From assembly GCA_016839655.1 (NCBI GenBank), contig JAEOTW010000015.1, forward strand, positions 1-23,892: 23,892 nucleotides of DNA, read 5' to 3'. Source of the DNA: Promethearchaeota archaeon. Lineage in GTDB: Archaea; Asgardarchaeota; Lokiarchaeia; Sigynarchaeales; SOKP01. The notes beneath the pieces are model-generated. The model worked only from the letters and a program-made list of their open reading frames with translations. It did not search any database and had not been told where the DNA came from. The first letter of the stretch is position 1; each line of letters opens with the position of its first letter. A program made the translations under genes and the position numbers. This document shows positions 5,590 through 18,856 of the stretch, in pieces.

Positions 5590-6663
5590 TTGAAAATTCT
5601 CAATATAGATCAAAAACACAGAGAAATATCAGTTAAAACCGAAAGCCTTAACGATTTATGGTCTTTGTACAATATTATCAATAAAGATGATGAAGTGGCT
5701 TCCTTAACTCACAGAAGAGTTGTTCTTAAAGAAGGGACTTCAGGGGAGCGAAAATTGATGAAATTAAGACTTAAAGTTGAATCAGTGTCTTTTCATGAGT
5801 TTTCAAATCGATTAAGAATAAAAGGTAAAATTTTAGAAGGTCCAGATGATTATGTTAGCTTTGGGACGTATCATACATTTAATATAGAAGTTTCTCAAAA
5901 GTTAACAATAGTTAAAGAAAAATGGTTAAAAAATGAACTAAATAGACTTAAAGATAGCTCAAAATTCGACTCAAATTTCATTATATTAATAATTGCAATT
6001 GAAACTGGATTGGCAACATTAGCTCTTATCACAAATTTTAGCCATAATCGGATATCTACAATTAGAAAAAACATACCTGGTAAAAGATATAAACAAACTT
6101 ACAGAAATACGGCATTAAAAGAATTTTTTACTGATATCCAGAAGATTGTAATAGAAAATATAAAAAATACAGAGATAAATTTGATAGTCATATGTGGACC
6201 CGGGAATACTAAGGATAATTTCAGAAATTTTCTTCGAAAAACACCTGGATTTGACTTTATGGGTAATATTGAGACCTGTCAAGCAAGTTCAGGTACAGAG
6301 AGTGCAATTAAAGAAACTTTAAAATCAAACAAATTAGCTAAGTTTAAAGATAAAATCAAAGTTTTAGAGGAAACTGAAAAAATAGAAAACATCATGTCTC
6401 AATTTGCTACTGATGCTGATCTTATAGTTATAGGTCTTGATGAAATATCTCCTGCTTCAGAAAGAGGAGCAATTAAGGAATTATTGATAGCAGATATCTT
6501 AATCAGAGGATCTTCTAAAGAAAACAAACTAAAAATAGAGGAAATTATTACAAACGTTGAAAATTCAGGCGGAATAATCAATATCATGAGTACAGAAAAT
6601 ATAACTGGAGAACAGTTAGTAAACCTTGGATCAATTTTAGGAATTTTAAGATATAAAATTTGA
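5590..6663 (+). CDS. pelA: Pelota (Dom34/aPelota), ribosome rescue factor
   Basis: This 357-aa protein has the normal archaeal Pelota length. The N-terminal Sm-like domain (about 1-130) carries DLWSLYNIINKDDEVASLTHRR, the typical Pelota opening. A central domain (about 130-265) contains FIILIIAIETGLATLALI and NLIVICGPGNTKDNF, which match the family pattern. A C-terminal domain (about 270-357) contains DADLIVIGLDEI and the final ENSGGIINIMST and LGSILGILRY. It enters the empty A site of stalled ribosomes and, with ABCE1 and aEF1A in archaea, triggers subunit release. The start is TTG followed by AAA, a pattern used by several genes here. Its stop overlaps the next gene's TTG. Confidence 0.95.
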   Translation: MKILNIDQKHREISVKTESLNDLWSLYNIINKDDEVASLTHRRVVLKEGTSGERKLMKLRLKVESVSFHEFSNRLRIKGKILEGPDDYVSFGTYHTFNIEVSQKLTIVKEKWLKNELNRLKDSSKFDSNFIILIIAIETGLATLALITNFSHNRISTIRKNIPGKRYKQTYRNTALKEFFTDIQKIVIENIKNTEINLIVICGPGNTKDNFRNFLRKTPGFDFMGNIETCQASSGTESAIKETLKSNKLAKFKDKIKVLEETEKIENIMSQFATDADLIVIGLDEISPASERGAIKELLIADILIRGSSKENKLKIEEIITNVENSGGIINIMSTENITGEQLVNLGSILGILRYKI

Positions 6664-7703
6664 AAATTATGACCAATGAACTAATATGTGTAGATAAAAA
6701 TTCGGAAATTCCATTATTTGGTATAGATTTTCTTGGTATTATTGATAGAGGGACTAATGTCATTGAAATTAAACCTTTAACATTATGCAATTTGAAATGT
6801 AAGTATTGTTTTGTAAGTGCTGGAGATTATAAAACAAACTTCATTGTTGATCCTTACTATCTAATTAAAAAAATAGAGGAAATTGTGAACACTAAGGGGA
6901 ACTACGATATTGAAGTCCATTTTGCACCATATGGAGAAATTCTTCTTTATCCTGATTTATTTAAATTAATTAAAGAAATTTGGAGAATAAAGGGGATTGA
7001 AACTATATCTTTACAAACAAATGGCTTATTACTTAATAAAGAGATTATTCAGCAATTAGAAGAAGCAAAAATAACACGAATAAATATTAGCTTAAATTCC
7101 TTAAGCGTAGAAAAAGCTAATTATTTATGCAATACCAGAAAATACGATTTAGATAATCTAATAAAAAACATCTCACGTTTATTAAATACTACAATTAACG
7201 TGTTAATCGCTCCTGTCTGGTTCCCAGGAGAAAATGATGAAGAAATTGAAGAGATTATTAAATATGTAAAAGAACTAAGGGAAAAAAGCTATTCAAAAAA
7301 AAAAATTCAAATAGGTATCCAAAAATATTTGATCTACAAAACAGGTAGAAAATTAAAGAAAATTAGACCCAAAACTTGGGGGTATTTCTATAAGCAACTA
7401 ACATTCCTTGAAAAGAAATATAACATCAAATTAAAATTGGGACCACAAGATTTTGGAATTCACAAAAGAAAAACTGTTGCGTCCTTGAAAGTGCAAAAAA
7501 ATGACATAGTAAGATTAAAAGTAATTTCGAAAGGACGATGGGAACATGAATACATCGGAAAAATTGATAATAATTTTGGAATAAAATTACTTTTACACAA
7601 ACCGATTATTCAATCAGAAAAATTAATTGGAAGGGAAGTTAAAGGCAAAATTATAAAAGCTAATTACAAGGATAATATTTTAACAGCTGTCTTTTCAATA
7701 TAA
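6660..7703 (+). CDS. Radical SAM protein with C-terminal beta-barrel (TRAM-like) domain
   Basis: This 347-aa protein has a canonical CX3CX2C motif in LTLCNLKCKYCF, followed by an SPASM-less radical SAM core. The core includes VHFAPYGEILLYPDL in place of the GGEP strand, SLQTNGLLL, and RINISLNSL. The last 70 residues (from about VQKNDIVRLKVISKG to ILTAVFSI) look like a small beta-barrel of the TRAM/OB type found on RNA- or tRNA-modifying enzymes. It resembles archaeal proteins annotated only as predicted Fe-S oxidoreductases. It starts with TTG at 6660, overlapping the pelA stop as TTGA. An in-frame ATG at 6669 is the alternative. Coupling with Pelota suggests a translation-linked target, but this is inference. 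Confidence 0.87.
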   Translation: MKIMTNELICVDKNSEIPLFGIDFLGIIDRGTNVIEIKPLTLCNLKCKYCFVSAGDYKTNFIVDPYYLIKKIEEIVNTKGNYDIEVHFAPYGEILLYPDLFKLIKEIWRIKGIETISLQTNGLLLNKEIIQQLEEAKITRINISLNSLSVEKANYLCNTRKYDLDNLIKNISRLLNTTINVLIAPVWFPGENDEEIEEIIKYVKELREKSYSKKKIQIGIQKYLIYKTGRKLKKIRPKTWGYFYKQLTFLEKKYNIKLKLGPQDFGIHKRKTVASLKVQKNDIVRLKVISKGRWEHEYIGKIDNNFGIKLLLHKPIIQSEKLIGREVKGKIIKANYKDNILTAVFSI

Positions 7704-9754: not shown

Positions 9755-9839
9755 AAATATCACACTAAAATAGGATAAAACTATATCAGTTTTCAATTAG
9801 AATAAAGAAAGGGGAAACTAAAATATTTTTGCTTTTTTG

Positions 9840-9853: not shown

Positions 9854-9877
9854 GGATTTTAGTAAAATTTTTTAGGA

Positions 9878-11053
9878 ATGATTAATTATTCTAATTACTC
9901 TTTTTCACTGAAATGCTTGTGCTATTTAAAAAAAATTGAGTGGATTTTAGGTATGGAGCATAGTAATTTAACATTGGAACATGATAAAAATTTGATTAAT
10001 AGCGTTCTCGATAATTTAGATATGAGATATGTAATCATTTTCTTATACATCATTAGGAATGATTTATTTAAGGACTTGAAAGACAGTACCCTAATTGAAT
10101 CCTATGAAAGAGTGCTTATATTGGATGATATATACAAAAGTAATATTACAAAATTTTGGAATGAGGAATTTATCGAGATTTACATAGATCTAGGATTAAT
10201 AAAAAATATTCGAAGTTTGAGAGAATTTGAAAGAAAAGAGGATGATTTTATCATAAAAGTAGGAGAAGAAACAATTACTATTGAAAATGATATAATTTCT
10301 GTTCCAGATGATATCCTATATTTAATAATAAATAAGAAATTTAAATTTTTAAACAAGAGAAATTTTAATTTAGCACTTACCAGGTTAAAAGGAGTAAGAT
10401 GTGAAAAAAGCAATGTGATACATTCATTAATTCTAGGACTTGGTGAACATGATTATACATTGCCTGATGATTTTTATTATATTTTAGACCAATATGGGAA
10501 TATTTATCAATCAATCAAAATTGAAATTACAATTGAGGGTTTTTATCAAAGGTTTAAAGAAACCTTAGAGAAAATCAATGAATTTGTGAAGTTTTTTGAT
10601 CCAGCACTAAATAACAAATTAATTATGAAAAAAATCAATAAAGCAATTGAAGAAAGTAAAGATATAATTCAATACCTTAAGGATGAGAAGGTTGATCTTT
10701 CAGATAAATTTAATATTGATAAAATTGATCCCACTGCTGATATCTTTAAAGAATGGAATTCTAAATTGCTATCATTATTAACATATAGAAATCAGCTTAA
10801 AGATATAGATGAAAAATTAATGGATTTGAAAAAGATTTATTCTGGTAAGGAAAAAAAATATAGTTATTTAGAATTTATAGAAATGATTTCTTTTAATGAA
10901 GATGGAATTGTGGATATTATTCAAAAAACCCTGATAGAATTAAGAAAGCAATTGATTATGATTAATGAAAATATGGATACATTCACAGAAAAAAAATTAA
11001 AATTATTAAATTTGGATTATGAAAGATTAATAATAATGAGTAGTGATGAATAA
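9878..11053 (+). CDS. Operon gene 1: helical protein of unknown function
   Basis: This 391-aa protein is not recognised. The first 25 residues contain three cysteine or hydrophobic clusters (SLKCLCYLKKIEWIL) and may be non-coding leader. An in-frame ATG at 9953 (MEHSNLTLEHDKN) is a plausible alternative start, but the TATA-like element favours 9878. The middle (about 90-200) is a mixed alpha/beta region. From about residue 215 the protein is helical with heptad character (FKETLEKINEFVKFF, YRNQLKDIDEKLMDLKKIY). It has no nucleotide-binding motif and no membrane segment. It opens the operon, two bases before gene 2. A structural subunit of the complex proposed for this operon is the simplest guess. 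Confidence 0.8.
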   Translation: MINYSNYSFSLKCLCYLKKIEWILGMEHSNLTLEHDKNLINSVLDNLDMRYVIIFLYIIRNDLFKDLKDSTLIESYERVLILDDIYKSNITKFWNEEFIEIYIDLGLIKNIRSLREFERKEDDFIIKVGEETITIENDIISVPDDILYLIINKKFKFLNKRNFNLALTRLKGVRCEKSNVIHSLILGLGEHDYTLPDDFYYILDQYGNIYQSIKIEITIEGFYQRFKETLEKINEFVKFFDPALNNKLIMKKINKAIEESKDIIQYLKDEKVDLSDKFNIDKIDPTADIFKEWNSKLLSLLTYRNQLKDIDEKLMDLKKIYSGKEKKYSYLEFIEMISFNEDGIVDIIQKTLIELRKQLIMINENMDTFTEKKLKLLNLDYERLIIMSSDE

Positions 11054-11055
11054 AA

Positions 11056-12024
11056 TTGAAATGTCCCGCCTGTAATATTGAAATGGAACCTTTAGTAGCA
11101 GGAATTTTTCAATGTCCGCAATGTAAGAAAATAGTTAAAGAAAAAGATGTAGAATCAGAAACAAAAGAAAAAAAAGAAACTCAAGTTGGGGGTTTTCAAG
11201 AGGGTGATTACTTTCATAAAAACGTAAGCCTAAATAAGCAATATGAAATCTGTGAAAAAGGCATTAAAATAAGTAAAACTGAGAATCGATTATTCGCAGC
11301 TTTGATATGCCATAGTGCATATTTGAAGGATGAAAAATATGTAAGATTATCATGGTGGAAGAATTTTCAACATGCGGGTATGTTCAAAATTTATGACAAA
11401 TATGTTTTAAATAATATTATCATTGCTTTAGAAAAAATTGATGAATCTTTCGACGATATTTGGAATTGGAGTGGAAAGTTCGGTAAAAAAAAAAATAAGA
11501 CAGAAGAAGATCTACAAAAAGAGAAACAATTAGATATAATAAAATATAGGATTCTTGAAAATAGAACTTGTCCAAAATGTCAGAAAAAAATGGACAAAAT
11601 GAAATCCCATTACGAGTGCCAACATTGTGGAGAAATCGTGATATTAGAAGGATATAACCAACCCATTTTTAATATTCTTCCAGAAAATATTGATCTACGA
11701 TTTCATGCAAATTTTCCAATTAATTTTTATTTACCTGTGAGCGGTATAACTCTTAAATGGCTGATGGGAGAATGGAAAGCATTGGCAGTTATTTATTCCA
11801 AGGATAATCCAAATAAAAAATGGTTGAGGTTTTATTGGTGGGTTCGCGATTTGAGTAATATTTTAAAATATGGCCAAAGGGAGATGGGAAATGGCACTCA
11901 GATGGGGTGGAAAGCCCAGAGAGGGATATCATCCCCTAATCTATATGATAAGAAGCTTGTTAAACCATTAATTAATGCGTTAAAAAATATCTCACATGAA
12001 TTAAATTGGACAATAATTAATTAA
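11056..12024 (+). CDS. Operon gene 2: tandem zinc-ribbon / Trp-rich domain protein
   Basis: This 322-aa protein starts with TTG AAA two bases after gene 1. It is an internal duplication. Each half has a zinc ribbon (C3, C6, C20, C23; and C172, C175, C188, C191) followed by a domain of about 65-90 residues. Matching blocks are YVRLSWWKNF (95-104) with WLRFYWWVRDL (256-266), and IYDKYVLNNIIIALEKI (112-128) with LYDKKLVKPLINALKNI (296-312). A linker rich in Lys and Glu separates the halves. The Trp/Arg-rich strands suggest nucleic acid binding, perhaps distantly like PC4-type single-strand binders. That is only a suggestion. The family is not recognised. Confidence 0.82.
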   Translation: MKCPACNIEMEPLVAGIFQCPQCKKIVKEKDVESETKEKKETQVGGFQEGDYFHKNVSLNKQYEICEKGIKISKTENRLFAALICHSAYLKDEKYVRLSWWKNFQHAGMFKIYDKYVLNNIIIALEKIDESFDDIWNWSGKFGKKKNKTEEDLQKEKQLDIIKYRILENRTCPKCQKKMDKMKSHYECQHCGEIVILEGYNQPIFNILPENIDLRFHANFPINFYLPVSGITLKWLMGEWKALAVIYSKDNPNKKWLRFYWWVRDLSNILKYGQREMGNGTQMGWKAQRGISSPNLYDKKLVKPLINALKNISHELNWTIIN

Positions 12025-12045
12025 AAGTGTGAAAAATAGAAAAAA

Positions 12046-13185
12046 ATGACAGAAATCGAAGATATAACTTGGAAGGAACTTTTAAATAATTTTCAAGAAA
12101 ATCTTGAAAAAATAGTAGAAGAACTACAAAAAAGAGATGTAGAAAACATTCCTGGCGCAAAAGAAGCATTGATCCAAAGATTAATTAATATGAAGCTTCA
12201 TTTTCCGAGAAATAATGGAGATATTTTAACAAAATCAATTAATGATAAGATACAAAATGCTTTTTTTCCCAATACGAAGAGTTTTTCTGAAGCTTTACAA
12301 AAAATTTTAAAATCAAGAACTCATGAGCAAGATTTTATAATCAATGAATTGCTAAATGGATTTATAACATCTAAAGCAAAAGCTATAGCATCTGGAACTC
12401 AAGGGCCAATAATAGATAGAATCGTTGAGGCATTTAGTAAGAGAAATGACTTCCATATAGTAGATCACCAGTTTTATGCAATGTTTGGAGATCCAAATAA
12501 GCCTCGTCATTATGTGAAAAAGCAGCTTGAAGAGCTTTCCAATATGTTTGGACTTATATCAAAAGAACTTGTAATTGAGAAGGATGTAAGAAGGAGTGAA
12601 GAAAAAGTATACGTTTTTTACACATTTCCAGATGAAATCATAAGCATCCTTGAAGAAAAATATTTGATTATTGATGAGGAATTGGGATATGCTATTGTGT
12701 CAGAAGAGTTTGATAGGAATGTTTTTATAAGCATGTTCTTAGCAAACTTAGCAATAAATAGGGATGATGTAGATAAAATTGGTGGAGCATATACAATTAA
12801 TGGGATTTCAGCGATATTTGCATTAATCCTACTCCTTAGTTTCATGCCAAAATTAAGTTTAGATGAGACTAATCCCATTTTAAATGACCCTAATTTTAAC
12901 GAGAAAAATATGAGTGTAATTCCAAAATCTTGGATGATGAAACAAGTTTTAGAACCATTATTCGAACCACTTATCAAAATTATAGCTTATCGAATAGGAG
13001 GAGGATTTTGGTTATCTAAAATAATTGATTCAGAAATTAACAAGAAAATCCATAATCAAATAAGATTTCTCCTCAAAGATGTTAATAAATGGATTTTAGG
13101 TAATCTATGTAGAGTTGAAATACCTATTTTCATTGAAATTTCTAACATATTTACTGAAATTTTAGTAGGGTATAATGAAGAATAA
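12046..13185 (+). CDS. Operon gene 3: helical protein with possible winged-helix region
   Basis: This 379-aa protein is not recognised. The N-terminal 130 residues are helical. Residues about 135-200 (VDHQFYAMFGDPNKPRHYVK, then a charged helix and the strand VYVFYTFP) could form a winged helix. A hydrophobic helix at about 250-268 (INGISAIFALILLLSFMPKL) may be buried in the core or be membrane-associated. The C-terminal part is helical and ends in FIEISNIFTEILVGY. No catalytic motif is visible. It lies 21 bases after gene 2 and 26 bases before gene 4. A kleisin-like or scaffold role in an SMC-type complex would fit its context but has no direct support. Confidence 0.8.
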   Translation: MTEIEDITWKELLNNFQENLEKIVEELQKRDVENIPGAKEALIQRLINMKLHFPRNNGDILTKSINDKIQNAFFPNTKSFSEALQKILKSRTHEQDFIINELLNGFITSKAKAIASGTQGPIIDRIVEAFSKRNDFHIVDHQFYAMFGDPNKPRHYVKKQLEELSNMFGLISKELVIEKDVRRSEEKVYVFYTFPDEIISILEEKYLIIDEELGYAIVSEEFDRNVFISMFLANLAINRDDVDKIGGAYTINGISAIFALILLLSFMPKLSLDETNPILNDPNFNEKNMSVIPKSWMMKQVLEPLFEPLIKIIAYRIGGGFWLSKIIDSEINKKIHNQIRFLLKDVNKWILGNLCRVEIPIFIEISNIFTEILVGYNEE

Positions 13186-13211
13186 AATTATATAAATTTA
13201 GGGGCAAGAGT

Positions 13212-14510
13212 ATGAGCTATAAGAAAAAAACTACCAGAACAGTAAAATCAGGAAGAAAGAGAGAAAAATGGACCGACATTTTGCCAAGATATTTAACCTT
13301 CTTAAGCCATATGCGTCCAATCCTAAGAGAAACAAGAAGAATAATTATTGATTTAGATGCGGATTTATTACTCGATACAGAAATTTTAGATAAAATACGT
13401 CAAGAAGAAGAAAAAAGGAATATCCGTAAAGTTAGAGCACTTTCAGAATTCTCTGCCATGTATAGATCAAATATTTACGAGATTATTAAAGATTTTATTA
13501 TCAAATATCGAGAAAAAATTCCAATAATAGATATTAAAGATTATATCGTAGAATTTCTTCACGAATCAATTGATGCATTGAATGTTTTACGCCATATCAC
13601 AAACCCTGATGAAATAAATTTAGAAAAAACATATTTATACCAATTAATTAAATTTATTGAGGATAAACTATTCCCAAGAGGCGCAAACTTAAGAATTATT
13701 TACAATAACTTGCTACAAAATTCCGCTGATTTTTACGAGTGTCAGCGCCATCTTTTAAAACCTCACACATATTATAGGGAAAAATTAGAAAGTCCAGATT
13801 ATTTTGAAATTCCTGGGATATCCCCCAAAATATATCAAATAATTAACAATATAACCTCACTCTTTAATTTAGACCCTAATTTTGGAGAATTCCCAGAAAA
13901 AGAAAATTATGAAATTCCAATGATATTAAAAAATGAAGTTTTTTTACCGTATATTGATTCAATTGCTAATGCCGAAGAGGAGGCTTTAGAGAAAATAGCT
14001 GAACGAATTGGTTTAAGGTTAATTGATGGGATATTTATAGCACCACAAGAGGATTTTGCAGAAATTTTATTAGAAAACAACTTTTTACGTGATAATAAGC
14101 AATCAGATGGAACAATAAGATTTTACCCACAATTTAGTAATGAAACCCTAATATTGTATTATTCCGCTTTTGCTTCTCAAAGACGAGGCTTTTTATCAAA
14201 GGAATTAGTTAACTGGATTTCTATGAATTGTGCATTCTTGATATACATGGGTATTTTAAAATGGAAACTATCTGATGAAAATATTTTTTACACTATCTTT
14301 AAAGATCTTCAAACAAATGAAAAAGTACTTCCATATTTAATGAAATTAATATGTTTTCCAAATTATTTAGGATTAGATAAAATGAAAATTAGAGATTCAG
14401 TTCAATATCGAAAAGAAATTTTCAATTTTATTGGATCCCAAATAGATAATCTTAAAATATTAATAAATGAAATAGCACTCTATTGTGAGAGCTTTGAATA
14501 TAAAAATTAA
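13212..14510 (+). CDS. Operon gene 4: basic-tailed helical protein of unknown function
   Basis: This 432-aa protein begins with a basic tail (SYKKKTTRTVKSGRKREKW) suited to nucleic acid contact. The rest is predicted helical throughout, with motifs such as IIIDLDADLLLD, EKIAERIGLRLIDGIFIAP and FPNYLGLDKMKIRD. There is no nucleotide-binding loop, zinc site or membrane segment. A GGGGCAAGAG stretch precedes the ATG and may be a weak ribosome binding site. The next gene's start lies about 17-20 bases downstream. I do not recognise the family. The tail suggests it may tether the operon's complex to DNA. Confidence 0.8.
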   Translation: MSYKKKTTRTVKSGRKREKWTDILPRYLTFLSHMRPILRETRRIIIDLDADLLLDTEILDKIRQEEEKRNIRKVRALSEFSAMYRSNIYEIIKDFIIKYREKIPIIDIKDYIVEFLHESIDALNVLRHITNPDEINLEKTYLYQLIKFIEDKLFPRGANLRIIYNNLLQNSADFYECQRHLLKPHTYYREKLESPDYFEIPGISPKIYQIINNITSLFNLDPNFGEFPEKENYEIPMILKNEVFLPYIDSIANAEEEALEKIAERIGLRLIDGIFIAPQEDFAEILLENNFLRDNKQSDGTIRFYPQFSNETLILYYSAFASQRRGFLSKELVNWISMNCAFLIYMGILKWKLSDENIFYTIFKDLQTNEKVLPYLMKLICFPNYLGLDKMKIRDSVQYRKEIFNFIGSQIDNLKILINEIALYCESFEYKN

Positions 14511-14530
14511 AAACAATACCTATGAGTTGA

Positions 14531-15646
14531 AAAATTATACCAAAATCTACTATTGAAAATGAAGATAAGTTAATATTCTCTGATGATGTTATTAAAGAAC
14601 GACTTGGAAAATATGGAGCGATTTATTTTCCATCGGACATAAAGGAAACCGTAGAGGATATATTAGGAAATGAAAATAAAAAAGAAGTGTTGGATGATTT
14701 TTTTAAAGCCCTTAAAAAATATAATGAATTTACTGAAAATTTAAAGAATACAAAATTAGCTCCAAATCTTACTGTCCTTCTTTATGGCCCTCCTGGTACA
14801 GGAAAAACTTCCCTAACAAGAGGATTTGCTAAGAAATACGATATTCCAATATGTGTTGTAGAGTCTGATAGACTTGTTTCACCTTTACTTGGAGATACTA
14901 TTAAAAATATTCGTGGAGTCGTAGAATTAGCAGCTGAAATTTCTAAAGAACGAAAAGCTTTTATATTATTTTTTGATGAAATCGATGCAATTGGCTCTGA
15001 AAGATCGAATATTCATGAAGTAGGAGAAATAAAAAGAGCAGTAATTTCTTTCCTCCAAGTAATTGACAGAATAAATTATGAAGGGGTGCCTCTTGCGATT
15101 TTTGGAGCTACAAATCATCAGCATCAGTTAGATTCAGCAATATGGCGTCGATTTACCTTCCATTTTAAATTTGATTTTCCTGATTTTCATTTACGCAAAA
15201 AAATTATTGAATCTTTTATTAGTAAAGTAAAAAACGCGAAAATTGGAGTTGATGATTTGATTTTTTCAAATTTAAAAAGTGAATATGAAAAAGTTCAAGC
15301 AGTTTCAAAGGATTTAGAAGCAAAGTTAGGAAGATTTATATCGGAATTTGAAAATGGTATTTTATGGGAAGAGTTCAGGAAAAAATTTAAATCAGGTGGC
15401 CTTTTAGAATTATCATATGGATATTCTGGATCAGATATTGAAAGAGGCACAAGGGTTGCCTTATTAAAATCAATTAACACAGGAATTTTGAATTATGATG
15501 ATTTTTATAATTCTTTGAATTTGGTTGGGGGTACGGCTATTCATGTTGAAAGACAAGACGTCTTAAGTGATGCTAAAAAGGCTCAAAATAATACAAACGC
15601 ATATAAAAAAAAAAGAAATAAAACTCTTGGACCTCCTGAAATTTAA
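14531..15646 (+). CDS. Operon gene 5: AAA+ ATPase, start unresolved
   Basis: The frame is open from 14531 (371 residues), upstream of the first GTG at 14687, and that extra sequence looks coding (FSDDVIKERLGKYGAIYFP). It has Walker A GPPGTGKT (86-93), Walker B AFILFFDEID, sensor 1 FGATNH, an arginine-finger region DSAIWRRF and a sensor-2-like GYSGSDIERGTR. This places it among classical AAA proteins of the FtsH/spastin type. A charged insert of about 60 residues (EYEKVQAVSKDLEAKLGRFI onward) separates the last two motifs. No protease or MIT domain follows. Just upstream, in frame, is ATG AGT TGA. One base out of frame is TTG AAA, the start style used by other genes here. A one-base error in the A-run would restore it. 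It probably remodels a partner from the same operon. Confidence 0.88.
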   Translation, partial: KIIPKSTIENEDKLIFSDDVIKERLGKYGAIYFPSDIKETVEDILGNENKKEVLDDFFKALKKYNEFTENLKNTKLAPNLTVLLYGPPGTGKTSLTRGFAKKYDIPICVVESDRLVSPLLGDTIKNIRGVVELAAEISKERKAFILFFDEIDAIGSERSNIHEVGEIKRAVISFLQVIDRINYEGVPLAIFGATNHQHQLDSAIWRRFTFHFKFDFPDFHLRKKIIESFISKVKNAKIGVDDLIFSNLKSEYEKVQAVSKDLEAKLGRFISEFENGILWEEFRKKFKSGGLLELSYGYSGSDIERGTRVALLKSINTGILNYDDFYNSLNLVGGTAIHVERQDVLSDAKKAQNNTNAYKKKRNKTLGPPEI

Positions 15647-15675
15647 AATTAATCAAAATTTTTTTACCTAACCTT

Positions 15676-16719
15676 ATGAGCAATAACCAAATATTTAATC
15701 TTGAAAAAATAAAGGAAATATCACACCCAATTGAAGATCTGCAAATAGAATTAAATCAAATTAACAGCACATCGTCTAAAATAGCAAAGAATATACAACT
15801 TATTGAATATGAATTTGATGATAAAAATCTTCTTTCCCAAATAACAACTATAAAAGAATTGTTACAAAATATTAAAAATAGAATAGATAAAATTTCCAAT
15901 ATTAATCTCAATAGATTTCTGGATTTTCAGAACCAATTAATTATAAAATATAAAGAAATTTTTAAGGATAGCTTAAAAAAGATAAGCTTAAATAGAGATT
16001 TAACAAAAAACATAGGATTAATTTTAGTCGAAGATAAAAAAATTAGTAAAATCATTGAATTTGTATCACATGTTCCCTCAATTGAAATTGCAAATTGGTT
16101 AGACCTTCTGGATTCATTAAAACATAACACAATTTTCTCAAAATCTATCAAGAAAACCAAAGATTATTATGAAAAAATAATCCAAATTAAGCTTAAAGAA
16201 GAATTAAAAAGAATTCCCGAAGATGTTCATCCAGAATTAATAGAAGAATATGAAAATTATTTTAAAGAGAATCCTAATTTAACATTTAATGAATTTTACC
16301 AAACTTTCGAGAATCAGTTAACTCAAGAAGAGTTGAGCGAAAAAAGAGCAATTATTCAAAAAGTTAAAGAAAAAGAAGAATTAGAAAAATTAAAAAAAAG
16401 GCAAGAAGAACAAAAAACAACTTATGAAAATTATTTAAAGCTCTCTGATAGAGAATTTAAAAGGCTTAGACGTAAGAAAAGTAGAGAAAAATTAACAGAG
16501 ATTTCCAAAAAATCTGATGAAAACAACTTAATTGAGATTAGTGATGAAGTATCTGAGAAGATTAAAAAATTTAAATCTCAGTTTGAAAAAAGTTTTGATG
16601 AAAAATATATGATACAAAAAGATGAAGATAAAGATCCAATTGATTTAATTAGAGAAAGAAAGAAAAGAAAAGATAAAGAATATAAACAATTTGAAGATCA
16701 TTTTGAAAATAAACAATAA
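15676..16719 (+). CDS. Operon gene 6: charged coiled-coil protein
   Basis: This 347-aa protein is not recognised. Residues 1-75 are helical with hydrophobic spacing (IEDLQIELNQINSTSSKIAK). Residues 75-210 look like a helical bundle, with SHVPSIEIANWLDLLDSL as its most conserved-looking part. Residues 225-347 are extremely rich in Lys and Glu (KVKEKEELEKLKKRQEEQKT and ERKKRKDKEYKQF), which predicts a long extended helix. It has no catalytic motif. It lies 29 bases after the AAA+ gene and about 17 bases before the SMC-like gene. Kleisin or linker subunits of SMC-type complexes are often this variable, so it is a candidate bridge, on context only. Confidence 0.8.
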   Translation: MSNNQIFNLEKIKEISHPIEDLQIELNQINSTSSKIAKNIQLIEYEFDDKNLLSQITTIKELLQNIKNRIDKISNINLNRFLDFQNQLIIKYKEIFKDSLKKISLNRDLTKNIGLILVEDKKISKIIEFVSHVPSIEIANWLDLLDSLKHNTIFSKSIKKTKDYYEKIIQIKLKEELKRIPEDVHPELIEEYENYFKENPNLTFNEFYQTFENQLTQEELSEKRAIIQKVKEKEELEKLKKRQEEQKTTYENYLKLSDREFKRLRRKKSREKLTEISKKSDENNLIEISDEVSEKIKKFKSQFEKSFDEKYMIQKDEDKDPIDLIRERKKRKDKEYKQFEDHFENKQ

Positions 16720-16736
16720 AAAAGAAGGTCGGGAAC

Positions 16737-18350
16737 ATTTCTAAAAACAATTTTAATGTATCTATCGGTTCAAAGAATATTTTAATTAAGGATAGATTCA
16801 CACTAATTAACGGAAAAATTAAAAAGAGCTTACTAAGTAATTATAAAAATGAAATATTTCTTGAAATTACTCAAGATTTAAATAATATTCCTATTGAAAA
16901 ATTTATAGGATTTTTACAGGAAGAAACTCAAAAATTTCAAAACTTGCTTAAAGCGAATGAGCTATTATACTTTTTGAATGAATACGTTAAAATTATAAAA
17001 AACAATATCTCAATTTCTTTTCAATATAATGATATTATTCATAACTTATTGAATATTCTTCAATATATTGAACTCCTAAAAGAAAAAGAAGCCTTGTCAA
17101 GAGAATTAGAATTATCAACTCAATATAAAAAATCAAGTGATATTACAGCTACTAAGAATTTATTGAATAAATTGAACGAGTCTTTAACCATCAATACTAA
17201 AAAGTTGGCTCTCTTTGAGGAAGATTTTTTTCAACGAAAAAACCAGATTGATCAGATCAAAAACACCTTAGAAGATTATAATTCAATAATAATACAATTA
17301 ACCAACCAAAAGAAGCAATGTTTTAGCGAAATCAACCGTATTACTAGAGTAATGGCAGGTGATACACCAGAATCAAAAGATAACATTAAAGTTGATATAA
17401 TAGAATCTGAAGGAATTTTATCAAATGCAGAAAAAATCCGAGCGATTCAAAAGAAAGCAAGAGAAATTCAATCTGAAATTAGTGATATAAATTCTAAAAA
17501 AAGTCAAACTCAATTAAAACTAGAAGAACTAACCCCTCTCTTTGAAACATTTGAAAAAGATCATCACTCACTATTAGATATAATCAATTCTGATAAAAAA
17601 AGGATAAACGAATTACAATCTGAACTTATAAATAAATTTGAAGATGATAAAAGTATAGAAATTGAAGATATTGACGTAGCTACTATGAAATCTCTAAGAT
17701 CCTCTAAAGAAATAAAAAGTGAGCTTGAAAAAACTGAGACTGAAATAATTAGACTTACCCTTTCTGATAATTATTTCAATTCACAAAATCCTTTTGAATT
17801 ATCACCGATAATTGAAAAATTGACTATGCTCCATGAGGAAACTGTTAATAATGAATCGAATATTGTTATTTCTTACAATCAAAAAGAGGTATCCAATTGT
17901 CTCGAACAATTTAAAGAATTAGAGAATTCTCTTTCGAATATTGAATCTTTATTGAATAAATTTCTAATAGGGATTAATATAAATTCCCAAATCAGGATAA
18001 TTTTAAGTCAAGATCAGAAGAACTTTTTCATAAATTTATTATTTATTAGAAAGGATAAAGAAAAAGTCAGATTTGAGGAATTAACTACTCCAGAAAAAAT
18101 TTTTTTTATCATTGTATTCTACCTCGCAATTAAACTTCATATTAATAATAATCACATTATTTTTTCAAATGTATCAATCTTAAATCAATATAATAAAGCA
18201 GGTTCTATTTATAGAACAATAAGAAAAATTTTACCGATGTTCGAAATGGAGGATAATTTGTTTAGATTTAGATTGACTTTTATTTTATCTAACTTAGAGT
18301 TGAAAAAACCTATTAAAAATTTAAATATAATAACAATTAAAGAGAGTTGA
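16737..18350 (+). CDS. Operon gene 7: coiled-coil protein with degenerate SMC/Rad50-like head
   Basis: The frame is open well upstream of the first TTG (16944). I set the start at ATT 16737 because it follows GAAGGTCGGG by a suitable spacing; this gives 537 aa. Residues 14-33 (NILIKDRFTLINGKIKKSLL) occupy the place of an SMC N-terminal strand and P-loop, but G-x4-GK[ST] is not intact. Residues about 85-390 are helical with repeated heptads and a central break near DTPESKDNIKVD, as in two coiled-coil arms. Near the C-terminus, ELTTPEKIFFIIVFYLA aligns with the SMC signature region (LSGGEK). HIIFSNVSILNQYN sits where Walker B and D-loop should be, without the DE pair, and RLTFILSN resembles the final strand and switch. 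It is thus a likely non-catalytic SMC relative. Its stop overlaps gene 8. Confidence 0.75.
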   Translation: MSKNNFNVSIGSKNILIKDRFTLINGKIKKSLLSNYKNEIFLEITQDLNNIPIEKFIGFLQEETQKFQNLLKANELLYFLNEYVKIIKNNISISFQYNDIIHNLLNILQYIELLKEKEALSRELELSTQYKKSSDITATKNLLNKLNESLTINTKKLALFEEDFFQRKNQIDQIKNTLEDYNSIIIQLTNQKKQCFSEINRITRVMAGDTPESKDNIKVDIIESEGILSNAEKIRAIQKKAREIQSEISDINSKKSQTQLKLEELTPLFETFEKDHHSLLDIINSDKKRINELQSELINKFEDDKSIEIEDIDVATMKSLRSSKEIKSELEKTETEIIRLTLSDNYFNSQNPFELSPIIEKLTMLHEETVNNESNIVISYNQKEVSNCLEQFKELENSLSNIESLLNKFLIGININSQIRIILSQDQKNFFINLLFIRKDKEKVRFEELTTPEKIFFIIVFYLAIKLHINNNHIIFSNVSILNQYNKAGSIYRTIRKILPMFEMEDNLFRFRLTFILSNLELKKPIKNLNIITIKES

Positions 18351-18856
18351 AACTATTGACAATAAATAGTAACGAAATTAGTGAAACTATAAGAAATATC
18401 ACAAAAATTATTTTAACAAATCCTCAAAAAATTATTCGTGAAGAAGATCTTAAAAATCTAAGTAAAGATTTCAATTTTGAGGAAATTATGAGTGATGTAT
18501 ACTTAAATTTAAGAAATGTGGGATTAGAGCTCATTAAAACTACTTTTCTTGAACAAAAATATTATATCCTAACTTCCGAGGGAAAAGATGATAGTATTAC
18601 ACCATCTCAATACGGTACGTTAGCTTTAATAATAGCATTAAGCAAGGAAGTTGATGAGAATATGAATGTTGAGGATTTAAAAGAAATTTTTGAGGAAGTA
18701 TGGGGCACCGATGTTCAATTTTTAATTGATAATGACTATATAAGAAAATTTGATGAGTTAGGTATAATTAAAATAACACCTTTAGGGAAAGCTGTTATGA
18801 AAAACGTAATTATGGATATAAATTTAAAAAATCTATTGAATCTATTTTCAGAATAA
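18347..18856 (+). CDS. Operon gene 8: tandem winged-helix protein, KITE/MAGE-like
   Basis: This 169-aa protein starts with TTG overlapping the stop of gene 7 (TTGA), so it is translationally coupled to the SMC-like gene. Two winged-helix units seem present, about 12-78 and about 85-155. The first carries NFEEIMSDVYLNLRNVGLEL and then YYILTSE, and its pattern resembles the first winged helix of MAGE/NSE3 proteins. The second carries GTLALIIALSKEVDENMNVE, then LIDNDYIRKFDELGIIKITP, ending in LGKAVM. ScpB, MukE, NSE1 and NSE3 are tandem winged-helix KITE subunits of SMC complexes, and their genes often neighbour the SMC gene. Length and position fit this role. The fold call is from pattern reading, so a generic winged-helix protein remains possible. 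Confidence 0.7.
   Translation: MKLLTINSNEISETIRNITKIILTNPQKIIREEDLKNLSKDFNFEEIMSDVYLNLRNVGLELIKTTFLEQKYYILTSEGKDDSITPSQYGTLALIIALSKEVDENMNVEDLKEIFEEVWGTDVQFLIDNDYIRKFDELGIIKITPLGKAVMKNVIMDINLKNLLNLFSE

Follow-up and report, generated by a model that had tools for sequence, protein, structure and literature searches.

Predicted SMC-like coiled coil without ATPase motifs, encoded with a KITE-like protein and an IetA-like AAA+ ATPase in a conserved lokiarchaeal operon

The window analysed here is a 23,892-nucleotide (nt) stretch from a Promethearchaeota archaeon (assembly GCA_016839655.1, contig JAEOTW010000015.1, positions 1 to 23,892). An earlier reading from the letters and open reading frames (ORFs) only, hereafter the sequence-only reading, proposed that eight tightly packed plus-strand genes in it form an operon for an SMC-like (structural maintenance of chromosomes) complex. 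The layout is as described: genes g1 to g8 span 9878-18856, and neighbours are separated by about 2-29 nt, except that g7 and g8 overlap by 4 nt. Among the eight proteins, Pfam names at or above the curated cut-off only the AAA domain of g5 and the zinc ribbons of g2. The features are as follows.

9817-9836 and 9864-9880, plus strand: two conserved blocks 5' of g1, probable promoter and translation start region
9878..11053, plus strand: g1, 391 amino acids (aa), without a named family; relative in L092 and L093, loci of two other Asgard genomes (hhalign probability 96.0)
11056..12024, plus strand: g2, 322 aa, duplicated zinc-ribbon protein with eight cysteines (Zn_ribbon_6, E 1.9e-5)
12046..13185, plus strand: g3, 379 aa, without a named family; among the most conserved subunits (hhalign 99.6 to L092/L093)
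13212..14510, plus strand: g4, 432 aa, probably a paralogue of g3, though a distant one (merged profiles, probability 89.9)
14534..15646, plus strand: g5, IetA-type AAA+ ATPase with intact motifs; probable ATT start at 14534
15676..16719, plus strand: g6, 347 aa, with a C-terminal tail that is mildly basic; may act as a linker
16737..18350, plus strand: g7, coiled coil of predicted SMC/Rad50 fold without ATPase motifs; probable ATT start at 16737
18081..18098, plus strand: LTTPEK motif of g7, in the place of the SMC signature motif
18347..18856, plus strand: g8, KITE protein, tandem winged helix (predicted fold)

The sequence-only reading described g7 as a coiled-coil protein whose SMC-like ends are degenerate and whose head is apparently dead. 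Folds were predicted from 36 related sequences. The AlphaFold2 model of g7 (predicted local distance difference test, pLDDT, 84.7) exhibits a head-coil-head topology, with a split ABC-type head on a long antiparallel coiled coil. Foldseek returned 58 PDB matches at E <= 1e-3, and 49 of the best 50 belong to named SMC/Rad50-superfamily complexes, including Rad50, Smc5/6, JetABC, Lamassu, Smc, MukBEF, cohesin and condensin; the remaining one is YydD-YydB. Rad50 is the top match (3.1e-8), and Lamassu chains lie within the top 20. Thus, g7 models as an SMC/Rad50-type fold and not as something unrelated. In 40 aligned sequences (one row a C-terminal fragment), Walker A and a normal signature are both absent (0/40 each) and a Walker-B-like DE occurs once (1/40), which agrees with a dead head. 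A broad LTTPEK-like pattern is found in 39 of the 40, and profile alignment places LTTPEK opposite the signature motif of intact SMCs (probability 32.5); profile similarity to SMC5/6-type heads is weak and confined to the C-terminal lobe. No hinge domain is seen at the apex of the model, where a short loop lies at about residues 207-229 with pLDDT mostly below 60. By alignment and predicted fold, g7 is therefore outside the SMC proteins as defined by ATPase motifs and hinge. Searched by sequence, g7 found generic coiled coils in PDB, and a weak Teb1 match (E 0.0011, single sequence) was set aside as unsupported by the fold search. The SMC_N family was matched in each of the 20 Asgard genomes searched with it, and most of the lokiarchaeal genomes have open frames of about 1150 and 1490 aa. 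Thus, the same organisms also carry ordinary SMCs, and g7 is an additional SMC-like protein.

A KITE protein is a typical SMC partner. The model of g8 is a tandem winged helix, as in the KITE/MAGE-like assignment made earlier, and thereby supplies by predicted fold the KITE subunit of an SMC-kleisin-KITE set. Its top fold matches are chains of MAGE-G1/Nse1 and Nse1-Nse3-Nse4 complexes, and JetABC chains are among the matches, so that g8 models as a KITE. The g8 profile links weakly to other Asgard KITE-like proteins (probability 31.5); its single match against PDB was judged to be chance. The preceding gene, g6, had been noted for a basic tail, and basic it is, if mildly: the last 110 residues hold 34 K+R vs 27 D+E.

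The AAA+ ATPase that had been proposed is borne out in g5 (PF00004, E 9.8e-26). GPPGTGKT, GATNH and WRRF are each present in 44/44 g5 sequences and FFDE[IL]DA in 39/44. The best models are those of IetA (PADLOC 1.9e-58; NCBIfam 8.4e-52), although the NCBIfam cut-off is missed (176.5 vs 510 bits). NCBIfam CdvC is also matched, at 86.6 bits against a cut-off of 650, and the IetA match is the better one. By its motifs and family matches, g5 is an intact IetA-like AAA+.

Of the accessory proteins, g2 is a duplicated zinc-ribbon protein as predicted, with cysteine sets 3/6/20/23 and 172/175/188/191 in 55/55 sequences. Merged profiles of g3 and g4 match each other at probability 89.9. The case for paralogy rests on these merged profiles, since unmerged g3 and g4 profiles stay below 20 and g3 against the g4 relative of locus L107 gives 0.8; distant paralogues are likely on this evidence, possibly an old duplicate pair. 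Because g3 and g4 accompany g5 in Lokiarchaeia and in L092/L093 (in L107, a g4 relative does) and evolve slowly, this pair is the leading candidate for the role of AAA+ adaptor.

Besides the g7 and g8 folds, the sequence-only reading had made conservation of the gene order in related genomes its test, and neither test refutes it. A g3 search of 5.8 billion proteins returned 635 relatives. Among the best 120 of these, identity is 83-94%, and the named sources are Asgard metagenome-assembled genomes and one marine sediment metagenome, with class labels Lokiarchaeia, Hermod-, Hod-, Thor-, Odin- and Heimdallarchaeota, and Promethearchaeota. Fifty loci were then taken from a scan of one genome per species. 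Because all 50 titles read Lokiarchaeota or Lokiarchaeia, we give the range as Lokiarchaeia and take the other class labels as loose. By tblastn with the window proteins, 32 of the 50 loci carry g1-g8 in the same order (one, L019, with a g1/g2 insertion). Two divergent loci (L047, L048) hold the full set, with g6 and g7 recognised by ORF reading, and 13 are cut by contig ends. In the other three (L039, L040, L045), an island separates g5 from g6; these were at one point taken for operons without g6-g8, a reading rejected because g6-g8 are present past the island.

For g1-g8, the distances between pairs of loci correlate with the corresponding distances for eRF1, Elf1 and Lsm (r 0.62-0.95, the three island loci left out), and in each comparison 0/499 permutations matched the observed r. 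With the island loci included, r against eRF1 drops to 0.65-0.79 for g1, g3, g4 and g5. Mean p-distances are 0.22 for g3, 0.23 for g4 and 0.29 for g5, vs 0.38 for eRF1 over the same pairs; g1 (0.38) is like eRF1. No g3 relative was found in the viral contig, phage and plasmid collections searched. The operon is inherited together and vertically in Lokiarchaeia, and because the gene order recurs over loci and the distances track eRF1, Elf1 and Lsm, it is beyond chance.

The island inside the operon (L039 13761-18652, L040 13856-21143, L045 13934-20685; also L087-L089) carries in common a BrxP/SspD-like PAPS reductase, an ATPase resembling Rad50/LmuB and more than one member of a 150-aa family. 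Two genomes add DUF5591 and TGT genes with HerA, and one adds a C5 methyltransferase and an HhH-GPD gene; these identities come from a scan of one representative each. In the island genomes g1 and g5 are unusually diverged, and in L039 g5 lies in two frames (12600-13750). Elsewhere, a 6.6-kb insertion with frames of 1226 and 626 aa separates g1 from g2 in genome G004 (L091 12868-19476), and HypB is broken by a ~4.5-kb insertion in G003 (L089 14764-14967 and 19520-19933).

Relatives of part of the operon lie beside intact SMCs in other Asgard genomes. At E <= 1e-3, the g3 profile finds a match in 62 of the 227 genomes of the phylum, though some of these matches, a few in all, are partial or weak. 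L092 (genome G093, a 4.36-Mb single contig) and L093 (G096) hold g1, g3, g4 and g5, and a g2 relative lies close by. After them comes an intact SMC (1057 or 1071 aa), which carries Walker A, the signature SSGQKQ, the motif DEFDRGLDP and what looks by eye like a hinge region. By hhalign, g3 (99.6), g4 (97.9) and g1 (96.0) all find their counterparts there; 197 profile comparisons were run, and a probability of at least 20 was obtained for eight distinct pairs. By sequence, the L092 SMC matches Smc5 (5.3e-9) and Smc6 (3.5e-8) best in PDB, at low score, and it is followed by proteins of 322, 313 and 176 aa, the last KITE-like by eye. In two genomes that branch elsewhere, the AAA+ likewise precedes an SMC5/6-type SMC: 41 nt directly upstream in G060 (L102) and 44 nt in G061 (L107), where a g4 relative (probability 93.6) comes before the AAA+. 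A second contig of G061 (L098) has a g3 relative (probability 95.5). Across L092, L093, L102 and L107 the AAA+ lies 41-81 nt 5' of the intact SMC, and the tree places the AAA+ of these loci with g5 (99/98), subject to a long-branch warning.

A phylum survey was run at first from the L092/L093 SMCs alone, a narrow base, and then widened; at most nine and at most three candidates were scored per genome, so that its counts are lower bounds. The AAA+ profile matches 63 of 227 genomes at E <= 6.4e-82, and in four of those (G093, G096, G060, G061) the SMC5/6-type profile matches at E <= 1e-70. The other 59 have the module without an SMC5/6-type SMC among the scored candidates, and g7 instead where loci were read. 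For the AAA+ of G038 (L115), no SMC is present on its 3.4-kb contig. Two histories are conceivable: decay of an SMC5/6-type SMC into g7, or a swap between g6-g8 and the active SMC cassette. A g8 remnant lies in L092 at 12602-12827, by galactokinase-like and Lsm genes, where L096 has an intact g8.

More distant AAA+/SMC/KITE clusters occur in G177 and G059 (L109, L116). Their AAA+ proteins fall outside the g5 clade on long branches, their nuclease-like genes were named by inspection with no Pfam match, and g3/g4 relatives proposed in them were dropped as unsupported by profile comparison. As queries in protein searches, L092 g3 and a 419-aa protein of L116 returned two proteins each. A further cluster, type A, combines an SMC5/6-type SMC with kleisin-like, KITE and RING-like zinc genes in 7/7 loci read (L106, L108, L110-L114, three of which built the profiles), with no g5, g3 or g4 match within the stretches read. 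The kleisin label is positional, with no PDB match and no kleisin family in Pfam; for the KITE label, Pfam gives weak support (SMC_Nse1 in 1/7, MksE in 2/7) and PDB, by sequence, gives none. In L106, zf-C3HC4 (E 0.003) and SMC_Nse1 (E 0.0022) both match below cut-off. Ubiquitin-like genes, so named by inspection, occur close to SMC clusters of both kinds: E2-like, E1-like and JAMM genes adjoin the type A SMC cluster of G075 (L108 10908-14633), and an E2-E1 fusion and JAMM adjoin the G061 g3 relative (L098 2750-5041).

The sequence-only reading placed the operon behind a single TATA-like element. A probable promoter region is retained there, but the TATA-like letters fall in the variable stretch between the two conserved non-coding blocks (9817-9836 and 9864-9880), which are kept in the 15 rows compared; the second block extends into the g1 start codon. 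The g5 and g7 frames begin 5' of the listed ATG/GTG/TTG ORFs, at about 14531-14534 and 16737, and both starts are probably ATT codons. For g5, and often g7, there is no ATG/GTG/TTG near the homologous start (14531-14540, 16734-16742). By inspection an ATT start was read for 17/46 g5 loci, and a narrower scripted count gave 8; the window and, near 12435, L009, L041, L042, L044 and L050 have ATT where relatives have ATG. The operon thus seems to make repeated use of AUU as an initiation codon. The 5' neighbour is a divergent Elf1-type zinc-ribbon gene, and the convergent 3' neighbours encode an Lsm protein and a HypB-type GTPase, with weaker rhomboid-like and M50-like matches. Farther 5' of the operon, an eRF1-family gene (5590-6663) overlaps a radical SAM gene (6660-7703), an order repeated in many related loci. 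Rfam and tRNA scans of the window gave zero matches.

No system known to us matches the operon as a whole, in line with the sequence-only reading; parts of it do have relatives, namely the IetA-like g5 and the AAA+/g1/g3/g4 set beside SMC5/6-type SMCs. The likeness to SMC5/6 lies in the best folds of g8, which are its KITE-type chains, and in L092, where the g1/g3/g4/g5 module adjoins an SMC with Smc5 and Smc6 as best hits and a sub-threshold Nse4_C protein. The operon differs in that g7 is without ATPase motifs and hinge, no kleisin or RING is recognised among its proteins, and an AAA+ and g1-g4 are added; g7 itself is too diverged to be placed in the Smc5/6 branch by profile. Reportedly, van Hooff and co-workers have traced SMC evolution from archaeal ancestors, and the Asgard subunits of SMC5/6 may fall within the scope of that work.

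Wadjet (JetABCD) and Lamassu (LmuABC) share with g7 an SMC-superfamily coiled coil. They differ from the operon, in which no nuclease or effector is recognised and which is vertically inherited. Among the eight proteins PADLOC found no JetD and no LmuA; JetC reaches just E 0.015 for g7, and the lone LmuB match (E 0.031) is in g2. IetA is resembled by g5 below cut-off, and no protease family that could stand for its IetS partner was found among the eight proteins in Pfam, NCBIfam and PADLOC scans. Both Wadjet and Lamassu have been reviewed as SMC-based immunity, and LmuB is described in that review as generally carrying a Walker B substitution, with maybe little or no ATP hydrolysis (PMC10586767); in g7, Walker A and signature are lost too. 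SMC5/6-related SMCs in archaea have already been published, and coalescin ClsN, Sph and Arcadin-4 are likewise archaeal SMC-like coiled coils outside canonical SMC; in the sections available, that study dropped candidates without Walker or signature motifs and contains no KITE or AAA+ operon (PMC9389158). Asgard SMC proteins are mentioned as condensin-like in a 2026 review (PMC12993045). A literature search of a collection with few subscription papers and no bioRxiv preprints found no account of the operon, the AAA+ module or a motif-less SMC-like subunit. The SMC complexes known to us all run on their own ABC heads, with LmuB maybe a partial exception.

Three other explanations were weighed. 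The operon could be resident defence of the Wadjet or Lamassu kind, fixed in Lokiarchaeia, in which an SMC-KITE sensor and an IetA-type AAA+ act against foreign DNA. This would account for the antiphage IetA matches of g5, and it gains from the nuclease-like genes seen by inspection in L109 and L116 and from the three genomes whose island holds an LmuB-like ATPase, a BrxP/SspD-like PAPS reductase and DNA-modification genes; the possible loss of ATP hydrolysis in LmuB (PMC10586767) is a partial parallel to g7. Set against this are the vertical inheritance, a fixed site between Elf1 and Lsm and the slow evolution of g3-g5 relative to eRF1. Moreover, no nuclease or effector is recognised in the operon, the viral, phage and plasmid collections gave zero matches, and the L109/L116 AAA+ proteins sit outside the g5 clade on long branches. 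We consider defence unlikely, although a serious contender.

That the eight genes are merely co-located and not one complex, with g7 a separate acquisition of Rad50/LmuB type, would fit the Rad50 and Lamassu fold matches, the weak and C-terminal profile link to SMC5/6-type heads and the L092 g8 remnant, which hints at cassette replacement. It fits poorly with the constant g5-g6-g7-g8 order and tight spacing in Lokiarchaeia, with KITE as the usual SMC partner, and with AAA+-SMC adjacency in four other Asgard genomes whose AAA+ groups with g5 (long branches); it appears improbable. Slightly less probable still is a cytoskeletal or cell-division scaffold, in which g7 and g8 form a polymer or membrane-linked structure that g5 remodels as Vps4/CdvC does ESCRT-III. 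In its favour are the CdvC match of g5 and a precedent in Arcadin-4, described in PMC9389158 as probably Rad50-derived and associated with an archaeal cytoskeleton. Against it, the CdvC match lies far under its cut-off and behind IetA, and g5 relatives adjoin SMC5/6-type SMC genes.

Our favoured reading, held at about even confidence, is that the operon encodes a chromosome-associated SMC-KITE-type complex in which an ATPase-less SMC is paired with a dedicated AAA+ remodeller, likely for chromosome maintenance. Several results weigh against it. On the query, TM-scores of the Rad50-led g7 matches are just 0.13-0.24; the VIA rows for g7 are mostly unrelated coiled coils, and its N-terminal lobe shows no similarity to profiles of SMC N-termini (probability 0.8). 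No kleisin is recognised among the operon proteins, g6 scores 0.1 against kleisin-like profiles that themselves have no Pfam or PDB support, and the Nse4_C match of the L092 313-aa protein (E 0.0013) reaches 19.3 bits vs a Pfam cut-off of 26. The nearest named family of g5 is antiphage IetA. The fastest-evolving proteins are g7 and g6, with mean p-distances of 0.60 and 0.55, and the L092 g8 remnant suggests that an active SMC cassette may have replaced g6-g8 there, which points to at least one exchange of the two. Binding of the operon proteins to each other or to DNA, and hence a single g1-g8 complex, is something we infer.

Under the SMC-KITE reading, g7 and g8, perhaps joined by g6, would form a clamp or scaffold that holds DNA but has lost the ability to cycle unaided. 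With ATP hydrolysis by g7 not expected, g5 would be the sole nucleotide-driven step left in the operon; presumably a hexamer, it would load, unload or remodel the g7/g8 scaffold, and g3/g4, with g1 and the zinc protein g2, would couple it to scaffold or DNA. The role would be chromosome maintenance (replication, segregation or repair) rather than mobile defence. The fuller proposal, an SMC-KITE machine without an ABC ATPase of its own, driven by an AAA+ ring with a four-protein adaptor set, of SMC5/6-type Asgard origin and widely kept in Lokiarchaeia, is tentative and on the doubtful side.

The operon supplies coordinates and alignments for families g1, g3, g4, g6, g7 and g8, nameless in the libraries searched. 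Asgard archaea are where the roots of eukaryotic SMC5/6 are sought. If the proposal is true, a motor of another kind can drive the SMC scaffold, or at the least service it, and an AAA+ remodeller would be tied to SMC5/6-type complexes in these archaea.

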